Shown here in pieces: positions 3,038 through 29,321 of a DNA stretch of 37,840 nt; positions within the stretch are counted from its first letter, which is position 1, and each line of letters opens with the position of its first letter. The position numbers and the translations under genes are program-made. The stretch is from Myxococcota bacterium (GTDB lineage: Bacteria > Myxococcota_C > UBA6777). Under the pieces are notes generated by a model. That model was given only the letters and a program-made list of their open reading frames with translations, was not told the DNA's origin and searched no databases. Where the stretch lies: NCBI GenBank assembly GCA_963169055.1, contig CAUJFU010000368.1, positions 1-37,840 on the forward strand, given 5' to 3'.

Positions 3038-3835
3038 ATGACCTCTAAGCCACAAGCTCACGCCTCTCCCAACACCCAACGCGCCAACGCCATCCTCGAA
3101 CAGCTCACACCCGAGCTCCAATCTCTCCCCAAAGACTCTGTGCTCAAACCCCGCATCCCACACGCTCGCGCAAACCAACTGACCGCGATCCTTCTTGCTT
3201 CTTTCGCTCCTCACGTTGCTCTCCTTGCCGGTACCTTTGCACCCGCCCTCGTCAGCACCTACAAACGCTTCTTTGACGAACTCGAAGATCGTGCCTTGGC
3301 TTTCTACGCCGCTGCCTTGACACTCGAAAACCAACTCACCACCGACGAGATCAAAAACCTTCGCTCTCTTGCTGCCAAAGTCGCCGACTTCGACCGCTAC
3401 TTCACCGATTGGTTTTTCCCCGCCTTCCGCGATCAACCTGAGATCTTTTCGATCCTCGAAAATGAGATCGCCCCCGGTCAGAGCCGACGCGATAGCGCCG
3501 AAGACGTCCTGCGCTTCTGTCAGATCGCGCAACAGCACACCCAACACCTCACCCAACTCACCCCCATCACCCGCGACGAACTCCAACAAGCCGAAGCCGA
3601 CGCCACACAACTCCTCCAACTCCTCGCCCGAGAAGGCCAACCCTCCACCGAACCCACCAAAGATATCTGGCGACGTGCCTACTCGCATTGGGCAGACGCC
3701 TACGTCGAACTCTGCGAAGCGGGCCGCTTCCTCGCCCGCCGCGATCCCAAACGCGCTACCTCCTTCCCCACCCTTCACCCCGAAACCTCGCCGCGCAAAA
3801 AACTCTCTCCCCCCACTCCTCCCACCCCTGCTTGA
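3038..3835 (+). CDS. Hypothetical protein, helical, 265 residues
   Basis: I do not recognise this protein. The ATG at 3038 is preceded by CGGAG at a usable spacing. A longer reading from TTG 2861 would run through the 33-bp tandem repeat and is less likely. There is no signal peptide or obvious membrane span, although residues ~48-70 (AILLASFAPHVALLAGTF) are hydrophobic. The rest is mixed charged and helical (YKRFFDELEDRALAFYAAALTLENQL, DFDRYFTDWFFPAF), and the C-terminus is Pro/Thr-rich. Codon use favours C-ending codons, like its upstream neighbours. It follows the lipoprotein gene by 173 bp and ends one base before the 42-bp minisatellite. Confidence 0.65.
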   Translation: MTSKPQAHASPNTQRANAILEQLTPELQSLPKDSVLKPRIPHARANQLTAILLASFAPHVALLAGTFAPALVSTYKRFFDELEDRALAFYAAALTLENQLTTDEIKNLRSLAAKVADFDRYFTDWFFPAFRDQPEIFSILENEIAPGQSRRDSAEDVLRFCQIAQQHTQHLTQLTPITRDELQQAEADATQLLQLLAREGQPSTEPTKDIWRRAYSHWADAYVELCEAGRFLARRDPKRATSFPTLHPETSPRKKLSPPTPPTPA

Positions 3836-3836
3836 C

Positions 3837-4165
3837 ACCTCTCGAATGCCCTCACCAAAGGTTTCAACCTCTCCCTCGACCTCTCGAATGCCCTCACCAA
3901 AGGTTTCAATCTCTTCCTCGACCTCTCGAATGCTCTCACCAAAGGTTTCAACCTCTCCCTTGACCTCTCGAATGCCCTCACCAAAGGTTTCAACCTCTCC
4001 CTTGACCTCTCGAATGCCCTCACCAAAGGTTTCAACCTCTTCCTCGACCTCTCGAATGCCCTCACCAAAGGTTTCAACCTCTCCCTCGACCTCTCGAATG
4101 CCCTCACCAAAGGTTTCAACCTCTTCCTCGGCCTCTCGAATGCTCCGACCAAAGGTTTCAACCTC
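3837..4165. repeat. 42-bp tandem repeat (minisatellite), 7.8 copies
   Basis: The unit is 42 bp and begins ACCTCTCGAATGCCCTCACC. Seven full copies and one partial copy run directly head to tail with no spacers, so this is not a CRISPR. Differences between copies are few point changes (for example TCC/TTC, CTC/CTT, GCC/GCT). The period is 14 codons and several frames stay open. In the frame of the upstream gene, past its TGA, it reads as LSNALTKGFNLSLD units without a start codon. On the minus strand a complete frame runs from TTG 4161 to 3775 (128 residues) as basic amphipathic LKPLVRAFERSRER units, beginning 38 bp after the lon stop with GAGG just before the TTG. Whether any frame is translated is unknown. 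The array sits between convergent genes. Confidence 0.92.
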
Positions 4166-11752: not shown

Positions 11753-11858
11753 CACCTTCTGTCTTTTCGTCTCATCGTTGTTTTCCCACAACATCGAACC
11801 TCCCCCATGACATCGGAGATATCGGCGCACCTTCTCTCCTTTCGTCCCTCCGCTGTCG

Positions 11859-11917
11859 ACACGGGGTCAAGGGGCGACAGTCCCTTGCGGGGCGTGGGGC
11901 AGCGCCCCACAAAACCC
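11859..11917 (-). repeat. Dispersed repeat, partial copy A (inverted)
   Basis: Read on the minus strand, this matches the first ~59 bp of the dispersed element at 20051, 25061 and 28231: GGGTTTTGTGGGGCG, then a GCCCCAC palindrome arm, then CCCCTTGACCCCGTGT. The second half of the element, with its closing AACACGGGG, is missing. It lies between the tRNA and the end of the convergent P-loop/CYTH gene, in A-rich flanking sequence (11910-11980) with repeated AAAACACAAA runs. Confidence 0.8.
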
Positions 11918-11999
11918 AAAACATAAAACACAAACGCCCCACGAAACACAAAACACAAACAACCCAAACCTCTACAACCCCCCTACAAACCAAGGCTGG

Positions 12000-19948: not shown

Positions 19949-20287
19949 CGCTCTCACCCTTCTGCCCTTTATTTCTCCACCGCCTCTTTGGATGGTACTG
20001 CGCTTTGTGCAGAATTGTGCTATCCATGAGGGCTTGCGCGGTTGGATTCGGTTTTGTGGGGTGCGACCCCACACCCCGCCATAGAACTTCGTCCCCTTGA
20101 CCCCCGTGTTGGCGAAGAGATCATCGTTTTTCACACCAACGATGCTGTCGCTTCAAGCGGTGCGAACACGGGGTTTTTGTCCACAAGTGACAGGTCGATC
20201 AAAAGAAAAGATCGTCACGTCTTTTATAACACAGATCAAGCCCTTGCTTTGCTTGATTATTCTCTTGTTTGTTGGGTAGGATTTCTC
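19949..20287. other. Divergent intergenic region holding dispersed repeat copy B
   Basis: This 339-bp gap separates the 5-TM gene (minus) from the Stig1-type lipoprotein gene (plus). The middle is dispersed repeat copy B. A TATAAC hexamer near 20224 could be a -10 element for the right-hand gene, but I see no convincing -35 partner. I see no further gene here. Confidence 0.6.
20051..20180 (+). repeat. Dispersed ~130-bp structured repeat, copy B
   Basis: The element starts GTTTTGTGGGGTGCG and includes a GTGGGG...CCCCAC hairpin, then CCCCTTGACCCCC. It ends with GCGAACACGGGGTTTTTG. CCCCGTGTT (20102-20110) can pair with AACACGGGG (20165-20173) across ~54 bases. Within that loop CATCGTT pairs with AACGATG. 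The closing arm and T-run resemble a terminator. It aligns over its whole length with copies C and D. Confidence 0.85.
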
Positions 20288-21550
20288 ATGGATCGTTTTG
20301 TCTTTTCAATGAATTCGGAACCTCCGAACCTATCGTTCCATCCGCCACAAGGATCGAAGCGCCCCACGCAACAGGGTTGGTTTGGTTTTCGGATGGTTCT
20401 GTGGCTTGGTTGCTTTGGCTGGCTCAACATCATGGGCTGCCCTCCGACTCCGACAGTCGAATGCGATGCCAAGACAGCTTGCCCGCAAGGAAAGCGTTGT
20501 GTCGAAGGGGCGTGCCTTTGTGTCGCAGGATACACGGACTGCAACAAGTCTTGCGTGGATCTTCAAACAGATACCGCGCATTGTGGCGCTTGTGGTGGCG
20601 TGTGCAAAACAGGTGAAGCCTGCCGTCAAGGTGTTTGCGTGCCGATCTGTATCCCACCGCAAGACGATTGTGGGGGGCGCTGTGTGGATCGCAGCAACGA
20701 CGCCGCACACTGCGGAAGTTGCAACAACGCCTGCGCTCCAACAACGCGATGCCAGCGCAGTTTGTGTGTATCGCCCTGCCCTGCGGAACAGCTCTTTTGC
20801 GGAGGTTTGTGCATCGATCCCAAAAGTCGCCGTACACACTGCGGAACGTGCGGCAATACCTGTGAGATCGGAAAGTCTTGTGCAAATGGGGATTGTGTGG
20901 CGGCGTGTCCGCCTGATGCAACCGACTTGTGCGAAGGTGGATGTGTGGATCTTCAGTCCAACCCGCTGCATTGTGGCGGATGCAACAAAGCCTGCCCCAG
21001 CGGTCTTCTTTGCAACAAAGGCCGTTGTGCGTGTCCGTCCGACCGATTGGAGTGCGGAGGAAACTGCATCGATCCCCAAGCAGACGCCCAACACTGCGGC
21101 AAATGCAACAGCGCCTGTCCATCAGGACAAGTCTGTGCGGTGGGCGTGTGTGTAGCGTCTTGCCCAAGTGCCTCATCTACAAACTGTTCGGGCGGATGCT
21201 TCGACCTTCAAAGCGCGAACGCACATTGCGGGATATGTGGAAACACTTGCACAGCAGGACAAGTCTGTGTTGCAGGCCGATGTAGCTGTCCACCCCAAAC
21301 GACCCTATGCAACGGCCTTTGCGTCGATCTCCAGCGCGATGTCTTGCATTGTGGTTTGTGCCAAAATCGCTGTGCGGGTGGGAATGTTTGCGCAGCGGGC
21401 CGTTGTGTGGCGACTTGCCCCCAAGACACCCCCTCCGCTTGTTTGGGCGGATGCTTCGATCTGCTTCAAACGGCCCGACATTGCGGCATATGCAACAACG
21501 CTTGCCCTCGTGGCGCGACGTGCCAAAATGGTCGCTGTGTCGCCCCCTAA
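20288..21550 (+). CDS. Stig1-type cysteine-rich repeat lipoprotein (8 repeats)
   Basis: A predicted lipoprotein of 420 residues. ATG 20288 follows GGTAGGA. The n-region is unusually long, and the hydrophobic stretch MVLWLGCFGWLNIMGC ends in a lipobox at Cys51; an internal ATG at residue 36 is a possible alternative start. The mature protein is eight tandem modules of ~45 residues with the pattern C.G.C(V/I/F)D.......HCG.C...C..G..C..G.C. These match the Stig1 (PF04885) pattern that is common in Myxococcota secreted proteins. Each module has paired cysteines suited to disulfides. There is no catalytic motif, so a surface structural or adhesion role is a guess. The shorter lipoprotein at the right edge of the window has the same module. 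Confidence 0.88.
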   Translation: MDRFVFSMNSEPPNLSFHPPQGSKRPTQQGWFGFRMVLWLGCFGWLNIMGCPPTPTVECDAKTACPQGKRCVEGACLCVAGYTDCNKSCVDLQTDTAHCGACGGVCKTGEACRQGVCVPICIPPQDDCGGRCVDRSNDAAHCGSCNNACAPTTRCQRSLCVSPCPAEQLFCGGLCIDPKSRRTHCGTCGNTCEIGKSCANGDCVAACPPDATDLCEGGCVDLQSNPLHCGGCNKACPSGLLCNKGRCACPSDRLECGGNCIDPQADAQHCGKCNSACPSGQVCAVGVCVASCPSASSTNCSGGCFDLQSANAHCGICGNTCTAGQVCVAGRCSCPPQTTLCNGLCVDLQRDVLHCGLCQNRCAGGNVCAAGRCVATCPQDTPSACLGGCFDLLQTARHCGICNNACPRGATCQNGRCVAP

Positions 21551-21554
21551 AGAC

Positions 21555-21908
21555 TCATACACGCACAACCAAAGACGTTCGGCTCAATTCAACATAGCTC
21601 CCCAAAGAAAAAGCTTCTTTGATTCCCTCTAGGTTTTGCTCGATCATTCGCACCAGTTCGCCGTTTGAGATGTTTCCCGTCGAAACGAGCAATAGCTTGT
21701 GAGGTTTCCCATACAACAAAAAAGAGTCCACGAAATCGGCGTCTTTGGTCACAACAATCCATTTTCCCTGAAGGGAGATATCGTTCAATTCTTGATCTGT
21801 TGTTTGGTTTCCTTTGTCCAGATCAAGCGTGTGGAGAACTTCGTACCCTTTCAAGAGGAAGACGCTCGACAATCTGCGCGGAAGTTGTGCATCGATAAGG
21901 AATCTCAT
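21555..21908 (-). CDS. DUF5615 PIN-like protein (putative toxin)
   Basis: A 117-residue protein with the DUF5615 pattern: MRFLIDAQLPRRLSSVFLLKGYEVLH at the N-terminus (the Asp in LIDAQLP), then KWIVVTKDADFVDSFLLYG with conserved TKDxDF, and KLLLVSTGNISN. The family has a PIN-like nuclease fold and is usually encoded with a DUF433 partner, as here. Its ATG overlaps the DUF433 stop (ATGA), so expression should be coupled. Nuclease activity is inferred from the fold family and not shown. The last bases lie only a few bases from the convergent Stig1-lipoprotein stop. Confidence 0.88.
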   Translation of the reverse strand: MRFLIDAQLPRRLSSVFLLKGYEVLHTLDLDKGNQTTDQELNDISLQGKWIVVTKDADFVDSFLLYGKPHKLLLVSTGNISNGELVRMIEQNLEGIKEAFSLGSYVELSRTSLVVRV

Positions 21909-22162
21909 GCAGCATCCAAAAACTGAACACGCTTGATTTGGCTCAGCTTTGCAGCAAAAGCAAGCACCGCGTAGATATCCTCCATCTCCAGATCCTCGTA
22001 ATCATCCAAAAGTTCTTGGTACGACATCCCCGCGCTAAGCAACTCCAAGATCACCTCAACAGGATAACGTAACCCACGAATACAAGGTTTTCCATGACAG
22101 ATATCCGAGTGAATTGTGATCCGAGACAATGATTCGTTTTGTCGTTCTGATGAGACGCCCAC
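21905..22162 (-). CDS. DUF433 protein (putative antitoxin)
   Basis: An 85-residue protein with the DUF433 signature: RITIHSDICHGKPCIRG, then LRYPVEVILELLSAGMSYQELLDDY and MEDIYAVLAFAAKL. It is a small helical, winged-helix-like domain, the usual partner of DUF5615. I chose GTG 22162 because GGAGG lies five bases upstream; the open frame goes on to 22225, and a later TTG (SLSRI) is also possible. It is first in a two-gene operon and overlaps the DUF5615 start by four bases. Self-repression is typical of such pairs but no operator is evident here. Confidence 0.85.
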   Translation of the reverse strand: MGVSSERQNESLSRITIHSDICHGKPCIRGLRYPVEVILELLSAGMSYQELLDDYEDLEMEDIYAVLAFAAKLSQIKRVQFLDAA

Positions 22163-22470
22163 GAAAACCTCCACCCTGTCACGCCCCGAAAAGCGTAGAA
22201 CAAGCATTTTGCGCCCAAAAAACACAGAACTCGTCCGAGAAAGACGGGATCAAGCGAGCGCTCTGTTTGTGAACTACTCGGCCCTAAAGAGCCGAGCTTC
22301 GAGCAGGTTCAAACGGCTCGCTACATTGAACAAGCCTTGCGTACCGAGTATCTATCCTTAGTGAAAGCAACGCAAGTTGATTCACCAAGGTTGAAACCCT
22401 TCGCCCGTTTCGCTGTCTGTCTGATACCACGAAGCACAACACGACCCACCAAAGCTTTCGGAGTTCCACG
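22163..22470. other. Divergent intergenic region with two alternative hairpins
   Basis: This 308-bp gap lies between the DUF433 gene and the HEAT lipoprotein gene. CTCGGC (22277-22282) can pair with GCCGAG (22291-22296). The overlapping GAGCCG (22289-22294) can instead pair with CGGCTC (22314-22319), so the two stems exclude each other. A plus-strand frame from about 22240 to 22400 reads protein-like (ELLGPKEPSFEQVQTARYIE) but has no usable start before TTG 22337. I see no clear promoter. Confidence 0.4.
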
Positions 22471-25047
22471 ATGCACACACGCCGCTTTCCACATCCAGCG
22501 CAAGCCACCCACAAGCCCTTGCCCCCTACACAAGACGCCAGAAAAAGAACTCGAAACCTCCGAGACGGCGGCTCCTTCCTTCGTTTCGGCCTGTTATGGA
22601 TGTTCTTTGCGACCGTATGGTTCGGTTGCATCGACAAAAACAGCGTAGAAGGGCATCTCCAACAGCTCGAAAGTACCTATTATGTGCGGCGCATCCAAGC
22701 CGCCCAAGCGCTTGCAAAGATGGGCAAGACCGCGCAGAAAGCGATCCCTGCGTTGCGTAGGCGCTTTGAGATCGACAACGACCCCAACGTGCGCCTTGAG
22801 ATCGTCCAAGCCTTCGGAAAAATCGGCGACATCGCAGCCATCCCCGAACTCATCCAAGCCATCGGCGATGAAAACGAAGAGATCCGCATCAAAGCCTCTT
22901 ACGCTCTAGGCGAGCTCGGCACCCCTGCCATCGCTCCCCTCCAAGCCTTGCTTGCCAAACCACAACCACTTGAAAAAGCCTACCATGCCGTTGCAGCCCT
23001 CGGTCACATCGGCCCTTCCGCACTACCTGCGTTGCGCGCCATGTTGCGATCAACCTCCGACAAGATCCGTCAAAAAACCGTCGAAGCCCTCAAGCAGATC
23101 GGCCCTCCCGCTGGCGAACTCCTCTTGCTCGCCATGAACGACGAAGTATCGGGCATCCGCGCCTATACAGCGTGGTGTTTGATGCAGCTTGGACCCAAGA
23201 TCCTCCAACAACAACCCAAGCTCCAAGACCCCCTACTTTCGGCCCTCCAAAAAGCCCTTCACGATGATAGCGACAAAGCCCGAATGTACGCATTGTTAGC
23301 GCTTCGCAGCCTTGGAAACCTCGCTGCTTCGGCAGCTCCGCGCCTTCGCCAACTTCTCCAAGACCGCTTGTGGTACATCCGAAAGATCGCTGCCACAACC
23401 TTTGCATCGATCGGAGAGACCGCACGCATCGCCATCCCCGATCTGCTTGATTGCCTCCAAGACGATACATGGGACGTCCGACAAGAAGCCGCTGCCGCTT
23501 TATTGGGCCTACGCCCTCTCTCGATCATCCCACAGCTTCTGCGCCTACTAAGCGATCACCGCCCACACGTTCGACGCATCGCCCTCCAGCTTTTCCTACA
23601 GATTCAAACGACCCCATCTTCCGAACAGATCAAGCGGCTCCTGACCTTGCTCGAAGATCCCTCCGAGATGGTTCGCGAAGCACTCCGCGAACGTCTCGCA
23701 CATCTTCCCCGCCCTCCCCTCGCATCGCTGCTGCGCGCCGCGCAAAGCCGACTTCGCCTTACCGCCGCAGAAGCCCTCTTGAGCCTTGCCCAGATCGGCC
23801 CCAAAGCCCAAGAAGCCCACAAAACACTCCAAAGCCTGCGCACCAAACCACACGAAACCGCCTTCCACAAAGCCCTTGGGGCCGCGCTTCGGGCCACTCA
23901 ACCGCCATCTGCGTCCATCTCTCAAGACCCATGCAACAACACCAGCGCACAAGCACGCGCCTCATGCCTTTTGCAACTTGGCCTTCTTCAATCACCCTCC
24001 CCCAAAACCCTCCAAAACCTGCGTTTGGCATTGCGCGATAGCGAACAGATCGTGCGCTACCAAGCCGTCCTTTCGCTCGGATGGCTCGCTACACACCTCG
24101 ATGACGATAGCGTCCACGCCCTCCACAGCTTGCTCCACCGAGAATCCGAAACAGCCGTTCGTCTCGCCGCCATCGATGCCCTCGGATGGTGCGCTGCCAA
24201 AGCAACGCCCCATCTCCCCGCCTTGCTTCAACGCCTCCCCAAAGCCCCTCCCACCGAGCAAAAGCACATCCTCCGTACCCTCCGATACATCGGACTCAAC
24301 AAGCAAACCTTCCAAACACTCCTTGCTCTCGCCGACAAAGCAACTCCAACGCTTCTTCTGTTGCTATTGCCCGCTATGCCGTCCTTTGCAACTTCTGTCT
24401 TTCCTCAAAACGCGCCCAACGAACCTTCTCTCGCCACACTTCGAACTCTGCTTGAGCGCGCCTTGATCCATCCCCTCCCAAAGATCCGACAGGCCGCTGC
24501 CATCGCGTATAGCGAACTCGGCGAACATGGCCTCCCCTCCATCCCCGCACTCCAACGCCTACTCTCCGACAATTCCACCGCCGTACGCTCTGCCGCCGCC
24601 CATGCTCTCGGATGGCTCGGACACAAGGCCGCTTCCGCCGCACCCAAACTTGGTTGGCTGCTCAAAGACAACGATCCTTTCCTCCAACGCAACGCCGTCT
24701 TTGCACTCCGTCGCATCGGTTCAAAAGCCGTCGTCGAACTTCTAAACGCCCTTCCCACCGCCTCCACCACGCTACGGTACAATATCGTCTATGCTTTTTC
24801 TCGCGGAACCATCGAACCCAACGAGATGCTCCAAACCCTCACAGCACTCCGCAAACTCCAATCCTCACTCCCCCCCACCGATCCCCTCCAAACGCGGATC
24901 GCCAGCGCCATCTTGCGCATCGAATCGCACGACAAACCCTACGTCCTTTGGGTCGATCACCCACGCTCCCCCACCTTTGATGCCTTTACCCCCCAACTCC
25001 TCCTTCCTCACAAAGAAGATCCTTCGCTCCGCATCCCTTCCGAGTGA
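22471..25047 (+). CDS. HEAT-repeat lipoprotein
   Basis: An 858-residue protein almost wholly made of HEAT/PBS-lyase-type helical repeats. Typical units are RRIQAAQALAKMGKTAQKAIPAL, VRLEIVQAFGKIGDIAAIPEL, IRIKASYALGELGTPAIAPL and, in the C-terminal part, VRSAAAHALGWLGHKAASAAP. ATG 22471 has GGAG at good spacing. The N-terminus is a long basic stretch, then FLRFGLLWMFFATVWFGC with a lipobox-like Cys53. This suggests a lipid-anchored scaffold on the periplasmic or surface side. HEAT solenoids bind proteins, and no enzyme motif is visible. A middle segment around residues 480-500 (DPCNNTSAQARASC) breaks the repeats and has two Cys. Dispersed repeat copy C begins 13 bp after its stop and may act as its terminator. 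Confidence 0.88.
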   Translation: MHTRRFPHPAQATHKPLPPTQDARKRTRNLRDGGSFLRFGLLWMFFATVWFGCIDKNSVEGHLQQLESTYYVRRIQAAQALAKMGKTAQKAIPALRRRFEIDNDPNVRLEIVQAFGKIGDIAAIPELIQAIGDENEEIRIKASYALGELGTPAIAPLQALLAKPQPLEKAYHAVAALGHIGPSALPALRAMLRSTSDKIRQKTVEALKQIGPPAGELLLLAMNDEVSGIRAYTAWCLMQLGPKILQQQPKLQDPLLSALQKALHDDSDKARMYALLALRSLGNLAASAAPRLRQLLQDRLWYIRKIAATTFASIGETARIAIPDLLDCLQDDTWDVRQEAAAALLGLRPLSIIPQLLRLLSDHRPHVRRIALQLFLQIQTTPSSEQIKRLLTLLEDPSEMVREALRERLAHLPRPPLASLLRAAQSRLRLTAAEALLSLAQIGPKAQEAHKTLQSLRTKPHETAFHKALGAALRATQPPSASISQDPCNNTSAQARASCLLQLGLLQSPSPKTLQNLRLALRDSEQIVRYQAVLSLGWLATHLDDDSVHALHSLLHRESETAVRLAAIDALGWCAAKATPHLPALLQRLPKAPPTEQKHILRTLRYIGLNKQTFQTLLALADKATPTLLLLLLPAMPSFATSVFPQNAPNEPSLATLRTLLERALIHPLPKIRQAAAIAYSELGEHGLPSIPALQRLLSDNSTAVRSAAAHALGWLGHKAASAAPKLGWLLKDNDPFLQRNAVFALRRIGSKAVVELLNALPTASTTLRYNIVYAFSRGTIEPNEMLQTLTALRKLQSSLPPTDPLQTRIASAILRIESHDKPYVLWVDHPRSPTFDAFTPQLLLPHKEDPSLRIPSE

Positions 25048-25060
25048 TCTTCGTGCTCTA

Positions 25061-25190
25061 TTTTGTGGGGCGAGGTACCAAATCCCGCCAGAGAGCGAAG
25101 CCCCCTTGACCCCGTATGGATGGGACGAACAGCGTTTTTCAAACAAACGGCCCTGCTACTTCAAGCGGCACGAACACGGCTTTTTATCCT
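25061..25190 (+). repeat. Dispersed ~130-bp structured repeat, copy C
   Basis: Starts TTTTGTGGGGCGAGG, has CCCCCTTGACCCCGTATG, CAGCGTTTTTCAAACAAACG and ends CACGAACACGGCTTTTTATCC. It lies between two convergent stops (25047 and 25217). It is the most diverged full copy. Its inner stem would be CAGCGTT with AACG...CTG, while the outer arm has lost pairs (GTATG against AACACGG). Confidence 0.82.
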
Positions 25191-25216
25191 CAAAATCCCC
25201 CGATCACCCGTCCGTT

Positions 25217-26446
25217 TTACGGGGCTGCGACACAACGACCCGCAGAGGCGGCGCACACCAAACCCGTTGGGCACTTCGGCGCACCGCTTGAGCAAGGGTA
25301 CACACAGAACTTTTCATTTGCGCTTTGCACGTTTTCGCATTTGGTATCCGCAAGGGAAAGGCACTGAGATTGCGCAGAACAAGGACGCAAGCAAACGCCC
25401 TTCCCTGCGGTCTGATCGCGCACACAATACAAGTTTTCTTTGCAACCTTCCGTTGCGACTCGGCTTGGATCGAGGGAACACACCGCGCCATGATCTCGCG
25501 GACCAACGGTACACGGCGCAAGATCCTCTTCCAACAAACGACCATCGCAATCGTTGTCCATCCCATTACAAACTTCCGCTTGGGGTTTGACTTCGCCCTC
25601 ACAAGCCCCCCATTGACCCGCCGTACACTTCTGCTCACCCGGGCGACAGATCCCCCGCGTATCCGTATTAAACGGCCCTGAATAACAAGGCCGCGAAAGC
25701 GATTCGTCTACCTTGCCATCACAATTGTTGTCTTTGTTGTCGCAAGCTTCGGGCTTTGGCGTGATCTCGTTTTCACACGTCGCAGACCACCGTCCTCCAA
25801 CACAACGCTGGATGCCTTGTCTACACTCGCCCACCCCACGCGTCGCGGAAGCCCCCGTATAACAATCCCGTGTTTCGCTGCCTTGGCAAACAGGCGTCGG
25901 TTCCGAGAGCGGTTCTTCGGGCGTAGGGGGTTCTTGCTCAGGGATGGACTCTTGGGCCTCAGAAACAGGCTCTTGCTCGGATTGGACTTCGCCTGCATCG
26001 CTGGACTCGCCTGTTTTGATGCAAATGCCGCCTCGGCACAACTCTTCCGCAAGGCACTTCGAGCCGCAACCACCGCAGTTTTGCGGATCGCTTCGCGTGT
26101 CGGCACAAGCCTTGTTGCACAAACGCGTGCTTTCTTCGGGACAGCATAACTCGCTCAAACAACGCTGCTTCTCGATACAATCCATGTCTTGCTTGCAAGA
26201 AACAGCAATCACAACGCAGCTTTCTTCCACACAACGCCGCCCTGACGGGCATTCTGTATCTGCTTTGCAAACCTTAGAGCATCGGCCACCTGCGCAACGA
26301 TATGTTGCAAAGAACCCACAATCGGACTCTTTGGAGCAAGGCCACCCTGACAGATCAACACTCCCCCCCAAGCAAGCCGACCACCACGGCACACCCATCA
26401 AAAAAAACCATCCCAACACTCGGCGTATCCGCTTGTTCTTCTCCAT
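25217..26446 (-). CDS. Cysteine-rich lipoprotein with MopE-type metal-binding motifs
   Basis: A predicted lipoprotein of 409 residues starting at ATG 26446. The signal RRVLGWFFLMGVPWWSAC has a lipobox-like Cys25. The N-terminal third holds C..D.DC......C..G.C modules (KESDCGFFATYRCAGGRC, CPEESTRLCNKACADTR). A Glu/Pro/Ser-rich linker spans ~145-190. Two motifs of the MopE putative metal-binding type follow: EACDNKDNNCDGKVDE and EVCNGMDNDCDGRLLEE. Each sits after a QGIQRCVGGRW- or GEQKCTAGQW-like stretch. The C-terminal part returns to cysteine modules and ends with an APKCPTGLVC segment. The family name comes from a copper-binding surface protein; metal binding here is inferred. Its stop is 27 bp from dispersed repeat copy C. 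Confidence 0.87.
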   Translation of the reverse strand: MEKNKRIRRVLGWFFLMGVPWWSACLGGSVDLSGWPCSKESDCGFFATYRCAGGRCSKVCKADTECPSGRRCVEESCVVIAVSCKQDMDCIEKQRCLSELCCPEESTRLCNKACADTRSDPQNCGGCGSKCLAEELCRGGICIKTGESSDAGEVQSEQEPVSEAQESIPEQEPPTPEEPLSEPTPVCQGSETRDCYTGASATRGVGECRQGIQRCVGGRWSATCENEITPKPEACDNKDNNCDGKVDESLSRPCYSGPFNTDTRGICRPGEQKCTAGQWGACEGEVKPQAEVCNGMDNDCDGRLLEEDLAPCTVGPRDHGAVCSLDPSRVATEGCKENLYCVRDQTAGKGVCLRPCSAQSQCLSLADTKCENVQSANEKFCVYPCSSGAPKCPTGLVCAASAGRCVAAP

Positions 26447-26584
26447 GCTCTACACTCACCCATCCGTCACATGCCAAAATCACCCACAGCCAAGCCTACT
26501 CAAGACTCCGCGATCTCTTGGATGCTCTCACCCAACGCCCAGATGTCCTCTGTTTTTTTGGCTTTCCTCATTTTTTCTGACGGA

Positions 26585-27886
26585 CTACGCCGCCCCAAAC
26601 ATCCGCTCCAAGAAGGCGTTGTGAAAGATGCCCTGTGGATCGAGACGCTTCGCAAGATCTCGAAAGGCTCCCCACCTCGGGTATCTAGAAAGGATCTCCC
26701 CCATCCCAAGATCAAATTCCTTTCCCCAATGCGGACGCCCGCCGTGTTCCCACAGGATCTCTTCTCCCCCCCGAAAATACGCTTGTCGGTCTCTTGAATC
26801 CGCCATATACAAACCAAGATGACACGCATCTTGCCCGTACGATGGACTCATCCAACTATCGCTCTTCGGAACAAAACGCACCTCAAGGATAAAGTCGACA
26901 CACCACTTTTCCCGTTCAATTCGCTCGCGCACCGCCAACAAAGCCGATGCCGCACGCTCCAACGGCACAGCATACTCCATCTCCCGATGCCTCGGTGGCA
27001 TCGCCAAAGGCAACACATCAAACGAACGTCCCACCCGTCGAAAAGGCTTGAAGTATTGCGGCTCCAACATCCGATTGATCGCAGGAATCCACTCGGACCG
27101 CCAACGCCCCAACGAGAGAAAAAACGGAAAGATCCAACGGTTGATGATCGCTTGATCAGCCCAACGCCCCGCACGCGAAAAGGTGATCGGCGCTTCTGTT
27201 CGGGTGTACCGAAATACTTGTACTTGATCCGTATGCGGCAACCACCACAGCTTGACGTACTCCGAGCCTCGCGCAATCTCCGATAGATCCGCCAGTGCAT
27301 TTTCCCAAGGCATCGGTCCGCCTTGCTCTTCCAAGCGAAATGCCCGATCCACTCGCAAGGTCACCGTCGACATCACGCCCAACGCCCCGAGATGCACACG
27401 CCCACCCACAAGATCGGGATGTTCCGCTCCTAACACGACGATATCTCCCGAACCATCGACCACACGCATCTCTTCGATCAACGACGACAACGGGCCATGC
27501 GCCAAACTGCTCCCATGCGTTCCCGTCGCCGTCGCCCCTGCGATCGTTTGTGCTGTCACCGAACCCAAGATCGGCAAAGCAAGACCCGCCTGATCCAACA
27601 ACCGATTGAGATCCCGCAAGCGAGTCCCCGATCGCACCGTGATCCGCCCCGCCTCTCGATCCATCGCAACAAGCCCCGCATAATCGTGCATCTCCAGACC
27701 CACGTCCTTCGGTGCAGCCACCGCCGACCACGAATGACGTGATCCTAAAGCCTTCACACAAAGCCCCTCCCTTCGCGCTTTTTGCACACAAGCCACGATA
27801 TCCTCTTCGCGGCGGATCTGACACCATCCGCTCGGAACACTCCGCACATTTCGCGCCCAGTTTACAAACGACCGCACCTTTGGCAT
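26585..27886 (-). CDS. FAD-linked oxidase, sugar-1,4-lactone oxidase (ALO/GULO) family
   Basis: A 433-residue flavoprotein. ATG 27886 has GGAGGGG seven bases upstream. The N-terminal FAD-binding domain shows ALGSRHSWSAVA, where the His aligns with the residue that binds FAD covalently in gulonolactone oxidase. Next come VRSGTRLRDLNRLLDQAGLALPILGSV, GATATGTHGSS and HLGALGVMSTVTLRV. The C-terminal ALO domain carries MEYAVPLERA, VDFILEVRFV and the family's GGRPHWGK motif near the end. Such enzymes oxidise sugar or sugar-alcohol lactones (L-gulono-, D-arabinono-lactone) or alditols with O2 or another acceptor; the true substrate is unknown. The protein lacks a signal peptide. It is 138 bp upstream of the MopE-motif lipoprotein gene on the same strand. 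Confidence 0.9.
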   Translation of the reverse strand: MPKVRSFVNWARNVRSVPSGWCQIRREEDIVACVQKARREGLCVKALGSRHSWSAVAAPKDVGLEMHDYAGLVAMDREAGRITVRSGTRLRDLNRLLDQAGLALPILGSVTAQTIAGATATGTHGSSLAHGPLSSLIEEMRVVDGSGDIVVLGAEHPDLVGGRVHLGALGVMSTVTLRVDRAFRLEEQGGPMPWENALADLSEIARGSEYVKLWWLPHTDQVQVFRYTRTEAPITFSRAGRWADQAIINRWIFPFFLSLGRWRSEWIPAINRMLEPQYFKPFRRVGRSFDVLPLAMPPRHREMEYAVPLERAASALLAVRERIEREKWCVDFILEVRFVPKSDSWMSPSYGQDACHLGLYMADSRDRQAYFRGGEEILWEHGGRPHWGKEFDLGMGEILSRYPRWGAFRDLAKRLDPQGIFHNAFLERMFGAA

Positions 27887-27900
27887 CTTTCAACCCCTCC

Positions 27901-27957
27901 ATCGTGTTCTCTCCCAACCTACCGCAGAGATCGTGTTCTCTCCCAACCTACCGCAGA
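27901..27957. repeat. 29-bp direct duplication upstream of the lactone oxidase gene
   Basis: ATCGTGTTCTCTCCC...CCGCAGA occurs twice head to tail (starts at 27901 and 27930). It begins 15 bp upstream of the oxidase start codon, just beyond its ribosome-binding site, so it doubles part of the 5' leader or promoter. Confidence 0.85.
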
Positions 27958-28230
27958 AACAGTCCCCAAAACAAGCCACTCACCTCATCTCTCACAAAGG
28001 TACATTTTTTGAAACATTTTTCGCGCCTTTTTCTTGTAGCCTCGTCTTTCAACCTCGGATACGCACATCTAGAAACGATATTCGAATCAAATCAACGGCC
28101 TGTCGAGCGTGTGGCATACGCCACAGCACCGAACCACCAGCGGTTCCAACCCACGTATGCGCATTGTCTCCAAAAAGAAAGGACTCGTGTACCATGTTTA
28201 TTTTTCACTGGTGTTACGCAGCCAAACGGC

Positions 28231-28360
28231 TTTTGTGGGGCGCGGCCCCAACCCCCGCCATCGAGCGGCGCTCCCTTGACCCCGTGTTTGGCGAAAAGAT
28301 CAGCGTTTTTCAAACGAACGAAGCTCTCGCTTGGATGGCTGCAAACACGGGGGTTTTGGG
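28231..28360 (+). repeat. Dispersed ~130-bp structured repeat, copy D
   Basis: Starts TTTTGTGGGGCGCGGCCCCA, contains CCCTTGACCCCGTGTTTG and CAGCGTTTTTCAAACG, and ends GCAAACACGGGGGTTTTGGG. CCCCGTGTTTG (28280-28290) pairs with CAAACACGGGG (28342-28352), an 11-bp perfect stem around a ~51-base loop. It lies 35 bp before the proposed start of the next gene. Confidence 0.87.
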
Positions 28361-28394
28361 CCAACTGCATCACTCCTATTTTTATCGAAGTTTT

Positions 28395-29321
28395 GTGCTC
28401 TTTCGCCAAATCTTCCTCTTTTCTTGCGCCTTGCTGTTGCTTTTTTTCTTCCAAACGCGCACCGCCTTTCCTTGTTCCCCAGCAACTTACAAGCCGTTCG
28501 AGCAGTTCTTGCCCTCGCACCAGAGCCAAAACGTCCCCACCAACGCGCTTATTACGATCCAATACAACCCTCTTTTCCCGTGGAACCCCTCATTGGATCA
28601 ACTCCGGGCCTCTCTCCGCCTCGTCAGATCAGAAGCCCCTCTTCCAAACGAAGTGGACGCCACCCTCGAGTCCCTTGCTCAAGGAATGATCTATCGCTTT
28701 CGCCCCACGCAACCCCTCCAGCCAGAAACCCGTTATACTGTCCGCACAAAGCTCAACTCAGAATGCCTCGGCTCTTTTTCCCCGATGAACTGCGATCTGT
28801 CCGAAGAACGCGATCTTTTCACGTTTCAAACAGGAAAAACGCCCCAAACAGCATACCCACCCTTTCCGGGTATCCAAAAAGCAAGCATCTACTGCAACTC
28901 CTACAATAACTCCTGTGGCAAAGGATGCTATTTCGACTACAGCGTACTCATCACACCACCCCCCACATCCAACCCGCACCGACGCTTTCACCTTTATCAC
29001 GCAGACAATCTGAGAATTCCCATCGCTTGGTACCTTTCGGCGTTTGTTGATCCCAACTCCCCGAACCAACCCTACCTTCTCGGGCCGGGAATCCGTATGC
29101 AGAAACGCAACGCTTATATCGTTCGTGCGGTTGAGATCACAGGACATATCGACGCAAACACCCATGCAGTCGAAGCCATCGCAAATGGATGTGCTTGCGA
29201 TGCCGACAAAGGCTCGTCTCCGCCCATCCCCGCAGGATGCTCGATCGCTCCAACACTCTCGTGGTGTTGGGCTTGGATATGGGTTGGGCTTGGATGGGTT
29301 CGGCGCAAAAAACGCGCATGA
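28395..29321 (+). CDS. Secreted protein with Big_5/SbsA-type Ig-like domain and hydrophobic, basic C-terminal tail
   Basis: A 308-residue exported protein when started at GTG 28395, which gives a good signal peptide (LFRQIFLFSCALLLLFFF). The ribosome-binding site is weak, so the start is uncertain; the longer frames run back through dispersed repeat copy D. Residues ~35-140 look like a bacterial Ig-like domain (QNVPTNALITIQY, IYRFRPTQPLQPETRYTV). The middle has a Cys-containing segment (YCNSYNNSCGKGCYFDYSV). The C-terminus is GCSIAP, then a Trp-rich hydrophobic run (SWCWAWIWVGLGWV) and RRKKRA. A Cys followed by a span and a basic end recalls MYXO-CTERM sorting tails, which are processed and surface-anchored in myxobacteria. 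That assignment is tentative. Confidence 0.7.
   Translation: MLFRQIFLFSCALLLLFFFQTRTAFPCSPATYKPFEQFLPSHQSQNVPTNALITIQYNPLFPWNPSLDQLRASLRLVRSEAPLPNEVDATLESLAQGMIYRFRPTQPLQPETRYTVRTKLNSECLGSFSPMNCDLSEERDLFTFQTGKTPQTAYPPFPGIQKASIYCNSYNNSCGKGCYFDYSVLITPPPTSNPHRRFHLYHADNLRIPIAWYLSAFVDPNSPNQPYLLGPGIRMQKRNAYIVRAVEITGHIDANTHAVEAIANGCACDADKGSSPPIPAGCSIAPTLSWCWAWIWVGLGWVRRKKRA

Follow-up and report, generated by a model that had tools for sequence, protein, structure and literature searches.

An intergenic block of about 130 bp recurs along the window, the whole 37,840-nucleotide stretch of contig CAUJFU010000368.1 that was analysed, and raises the question of what kind of repeat it is. The sequence-only reading had offered three options: a MITE-like non-autonomous element, a REP-type repeat, or a family of structured RNAs or terminators. 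The best explanation, in which we place high confidence, identifies the repeat as a lineage-specific MITE, a DNA transposon without genes. The family is new, genus-specific and high-copy, and the kind of element is well known.

Copies of the repeat in the window

All three full copies aligned end to end as first described (20052-20179, 25061-25188 and 28231-28358), with copies 1 and 3 showing 79% identity without gaps, and the half copy on the minus strand (11857-11918) was also real. When the flanks were included, copy 1 (20028-20179, plus strand) comprised the core and a remnant of the left terminal repeat (GAGGGCTTGCGCGGTTG, 20028-20044, plus strand, 13/17 matches), with a decayed right end. 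Copy 2 (25058-25186, plus strand) was a decayed core that had lost both ends. Copy 3 (28208-28378, plus strand) was the best full-length copy of the window, with its left end at 28208-28224 (10/17 matches) and its right end at 28362-28378 (CAACTGCATCACTCCTA, 14/17 matches), both on the plus strand. The flanks of copy 3, TTTTCA and TTTTTA, differ at one position and look like a 6-bp target duplication. The two-hairpin left part of its core (28231-28285, plus strand) ends in CCTTGACCCCGT, and AACACGG with its T-run (28340-28357, plus strand) lies near the right end, where no terminator was called. The half copy contained only the GTGGGG/CCCCAC hairpin, the second hairpin and CCTTGACCCCGT. Terminal inverted repeats were degenerate in the window copies and clearest in copy 3; the majority of these copies are old and decayed.

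Other features of the window include a 42-bp tandem repeat of approximately eight copies around a reading-frame end (3795-4160) and a cysteine-rich protein (20042-21550) in which seven segments match Pfam Stig1, a family whose name comes from plants.

The repeat is the core of a larger element with terminal inverted repeats

Bacterial MITEs are non-coding elements of 70-300 bp with 15-30-bp terminal inverted repeats (PMC3733652, PMC10969869). Alignment of the copies together with their flanks showed that the 128-bp block (127 bp as query) is the interior of an element of about 167-173 bp, bounded by 17-bp terminal inverted repeats, TAGGACTTACGCAGTTG. The conserved left (ATAGGACTTACGCAGTTG) and right (CAACTGCGTAAGTCCTAT) ends lie outside the block and extend the element by about 20-25 bp on each side of the core. 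The unit of about 130 bp is thus a real repeat, but only the core of a larger element. Most full copies measured 167-173 bp, which leaves no room for a transposase or other coding sequence. The core was conserved at 80% mean column identity, unpaired blocks included.

A search of the genome with the 15-bp end motif GGACTTACGCAGTTG gave 148 matches at one mismatch or fewer, compared with 0 for the reversed control. Paired ends formed two size classes, one of about 167-173 bp, which contains the repeat of the window, and one of 116 bp.

Copy number and distribution

The host genome, an incomplete Myxococcota MAG, was searched with the 127-bp copy 3 as query, and the repeat was found at at least 41 places including the query itself (best 40 of 617 candidates scored). 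The best paralogues were 80-85% identical to the query, with E values down to 1.5e-31. Neither outcome named beforehand as refuting the observation was obtained: the host genome holds further copies, and one recent segmental duplication does not account for them. In a 375-kb contig sample, a profile search recovered 47 copies and fragments, or 51 at a looser threshold, even though some seeds of the profile were misoriented. Copies made up approximately 1.7-1.9% of the sampled DNA in both species that carry the element. We estimate several hundred copies per genome (600-1000), a figure that may be somewhat high because most of the sampled contigs were picked for holding a copy. Several copies were located at the ends of contigs, where a repeat that disrupts assembly would be expected.

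One relative, a sister species, also had many copies, and among all the genomes searched these were confined to one genus. The sister species (Myxococcota MAG.451, JAKLKB01; G001) gave 859 first-look candidates, while searches of three same-family members from other genera and of 140 additional genomes gave no match to the element. Likewise, the 17-bp end motif at two mismatches or fewer had 233 and 235 matches in the two genus members and 0-1 in other genera. There was no match to the element in plasmid, phage and viral collections; 15 bp of the element end was present in viral contigs, in which the core had no match.

An unannotated family accounts for nearly 2% of the sampled DNA in two Myxococcota species, and annotations of this lineage would keep meeting it as an "unknown intergenic repeat".

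Target duplications and presence/absence between species

Of 66 elements, 27 had identical direct flanks of 5 or 6 bp, compared with a mean of 1.2 and a maximum of 6 over 2000 permutations in which flanks were paired at random. By size class, these target duplications were present in 10/40 elements of the 170-bp class and 17/26 of the 116-bp class, and they mostly began with T and ended with A. The element would insert mostly at T(N)3-4A sites and duplicate 5-6 bp.

The two species share about 90-95% nucleotide identity and have many shared and unshared insertions. The clearest empty site was found for the 116-bp sibling, where the host (G000) reads TTTTTTTCTCTGAGGTG and the sister carries the element between two TCTGAG. 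Presence and absence of the 170-bp element between the species was also seen at syntenic loci, with other copies common to both, but its empty sites were imprecise by several bases. In one case each species has its own 170-bp copy, offset from the other by a few bases; such a pattern points to separate insertions at a single intergenic spot.

The window itself is syntenic with G001:C55 at approximately 84-96% identity by block. Copy 1 is common to both species (sister orthologue at L142 10039-10190), the site of copy 2 holds a different insertion in the sister, and the sister sequence differs from the window in the half-copy interval and around copy 3. Hundreds of insertions would have built up before and after the split of the two species. 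With this pair of species, the gain and loss of MITEs and their choice of target could be measured; apart from these uses, the element is ordinary biology.

Two gene loci of the window also differed in this comparison. A DUF5615 (PIN-like) and DUF433 gene pair that is toxin-antitoxin-like (21593-22269) was missing from the corresponding syntenic position of the sister genome, and the sister sequence differed across 26665-29306, which holds a D-arabinono-1,4-lactone-oxidase-like gene together with copy 3.

Gene context

Using a simple codon-usage caller that misses some cysteine-rich genes, so that all counts given here are approximate, we found less than 10% overlap with called genes for 44 of the 47 sampled copies, against 21% of random segments. 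The earlier claim that all copies lie between genes therefore holds across the family, but two of the window's copies, 1 and 3, run into open reading frames with starts that are probably placed too early. Relative to tandem flanking genes in the 375-kb sample, 16 copies were oriented with the genes and 13 against, showing no strand bias, and 5 and 4 copies lay in divergent and convergent gaps, respectively. Selection would have retained those insertions that lay between genes.

The suggestion of a MITE-like non-autonomous element is borne out by the several hundred copies scattered between genes, by the target duplications and terminal inverted repeats, and by insertions that differ between the two species.

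Candidate transposases

A transposase from an autonomous insertion sequence, acting in trans, would recognise the TAGGACTTACGCAGTTG ends. Four transposase models were used, of which two were applied to the host genome alone, and no autonomous element with the element's ends was found in these incomplete assemblies; since both are fragmented, the partner may simply be missing. The host genome had no match to DDE_Tnp_1 or DDE_3; DDE_Tnp_1_2 matched in the sister genome only, within an element with other ends.

The likeliest transposase is of the IS1634 (IS4-related) type, a tentative assignment to which we give slightly less than an even chance. IS1634 duplicates 5-6-bp AT-rich sites (PMC2266710), in agreement with the duplications of the element, and fragments of IS1634 transposases were present in both genomes. 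However, the lone readable remnant ends in CCCACCTTCCGCACTGAAC, which is unrelated to the ends of the element, and the other fragments had no readable ends, so mobilisation by this type is a hypothesis at the strength given. The YT at terminal positions 7-8 of the element ends fits the published end consensus C-----YT, but their first base is T, not C.

Three other candidates were rejected. A Tc1/mariner (IS630) element with TA duplication was suggested by TA at both ends, but the duplications are 5-6 bp and the host genome lacks DDE_3. An IS5-like match in the sister genome proved to be a separate, internally deleted element with GAGGGTGTTTGCGAAAAAGTG ends and a TTA duplication; it is inserted into a 170-bp copy at its left end (L161 ~1330-1690). 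A 2-kb end pair in G001:C102, considered as an autonomous element, turned out to be a gene for a cysteine-rich protein with one copy on either side.

The variable interior

The second hairpin of orthologous copies differed at 36/186 positions, compared with 95/995 elsewhere in the element, in eight pairs of which one (L069/L102) is probably not orthologous. It changed in multi-base blocks (AAGGG, CCATAG and CCCTTA arms) between otherwise similar orthologues, for instance CCATAG versus CAAGGG at copy 1. Such block changes could arise by gene conversion among copies or by palindrome-templated mutation. We consider it rather unlikely that the interior is more than filler and that its hairpin blocks stem from gene conversion among the hundreds of copies or from palindrome-templated mutation; if so, the family would naturally keep a record of such events or would be a structural element that has been co-opted.

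A MITE later co-opted by its host, for example in mRNA processing or chromosome organisation, would be an addition to the best explanation and not an alternative origin. The conservation of the core, which extends to its unpaired blocks, and the share of the DNA that the copies occupy in both species are in keeping with such a role. Against it, neither orientation nor site was conserved beyond ordinary intergenic placement, and many copies are decayed, lost or species-specific. We regard co-option as improbable.

Secondary structure and alternative readings

Besides the GTGGGG/CCCCAC hairpin, the consensus contains a GGCGA/TCGCT helix and a second hairpin, which is variable. MITEs usually have strong secondary structures (PMC3733652). 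We weighed the structure also as that of a structured-RNA or 3'-end terminator family, spread by duplication and kept for function. Compensatory changes from U-A to C-G occurred in the GTGGGG/CCCCAC hairpin in 8 of 39 copies, the GGCGA/TCGCT helix was 99% paired, and the T-run reported after AACACGG was present and conserved among copies. The named structure also outscored shuffles on covariation, with 7 pairs showing double changes against 3.5 in shuffles, although these were few pairs and mainly U-A to C-G changes in the first hairpin. However, the RNAalifold covariation term was only -0.44, with a double change in 3 of 17 predicted pairs. Copy 1 folded better than shuffles (z -3.3), but copies 2 and 3 did not (z +1.3 and -0.1, respectively). 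A simple terminator scan found nothing at any copy. An intrinsic-terminator repeat would have its compact GC hairpin immediately ahead of the T-run and would follow the direction of the genes upstream, a pattern that the copies did not show. No Rfam family matched the repeat. Because covariation was weak, orientation to genes was unbiased (16 vs 13) and Rfam and terminator matches were lacking, the RNA or terminator option is not supported; it also leaves the target duplications unexplained, and we judge it very improbable.

IS200/IS605-type insertion is not known to make a target duplication. A palindromic repeat of the REP/BIME type, mobilised by a RAYT (IS200/IS605-type) transposase, would share the high copy number, intergenic position and internal palindromic hairpins, but the element, with its size of ~170 bp, 17-bp terminal inverted repeats and flanking 5-6-bp target duplications, differs from REPs, which are 20-40 bp palindromes (PMC3733652) with a GTAG/CGTC tag, and we reject this option as extremely improbable because RAYT-type movement would leave the duplications unaccounted for.

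Comparison with known MITEs and other dispersed repeats

Bacterial MITEs often adjoin genes, fold strongly and have truncated copies (PMC3733652, PMC10969869). The MITE described here shares its size, non-coding nature, terminal repeats and structure with Correia/NEMIS, Nezha, Chunjie, RUP and ERIC. Unlike known MITEs, it is a new sequence family with no Rfam, plasmid or phage match and is present in one genus only. ERIC has 711 copies in Photorhabdus luminescens (PMC10969869); the estimated copy number of the present element is near the top of reported MITE values, and so is notable but not unusual in kind.

The 116-bp sibling MITE was found in both species (L051 400-515, L053-L056, L103, L111 and others). 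It has the same terminal repeats and target duplications as the 170-bp element but a different interior, with a GGGCGGTTCGCGAACCGCCC hairpin, and it is much rarer, at 4 loci in the 375-kb sample.

Another dispersed repeat, the third, has ends similar to ATACGAAATCCG / CGGATTTCGTAT and contains a GTAGGGGCAGCCCCCTGTGGCTGCCC hairpin; it was often nested in the other two. It was found at 14 loci in the 375-kb host sample, and its loci include L161 1040-1330, L107 from 1540, L134 and L091.
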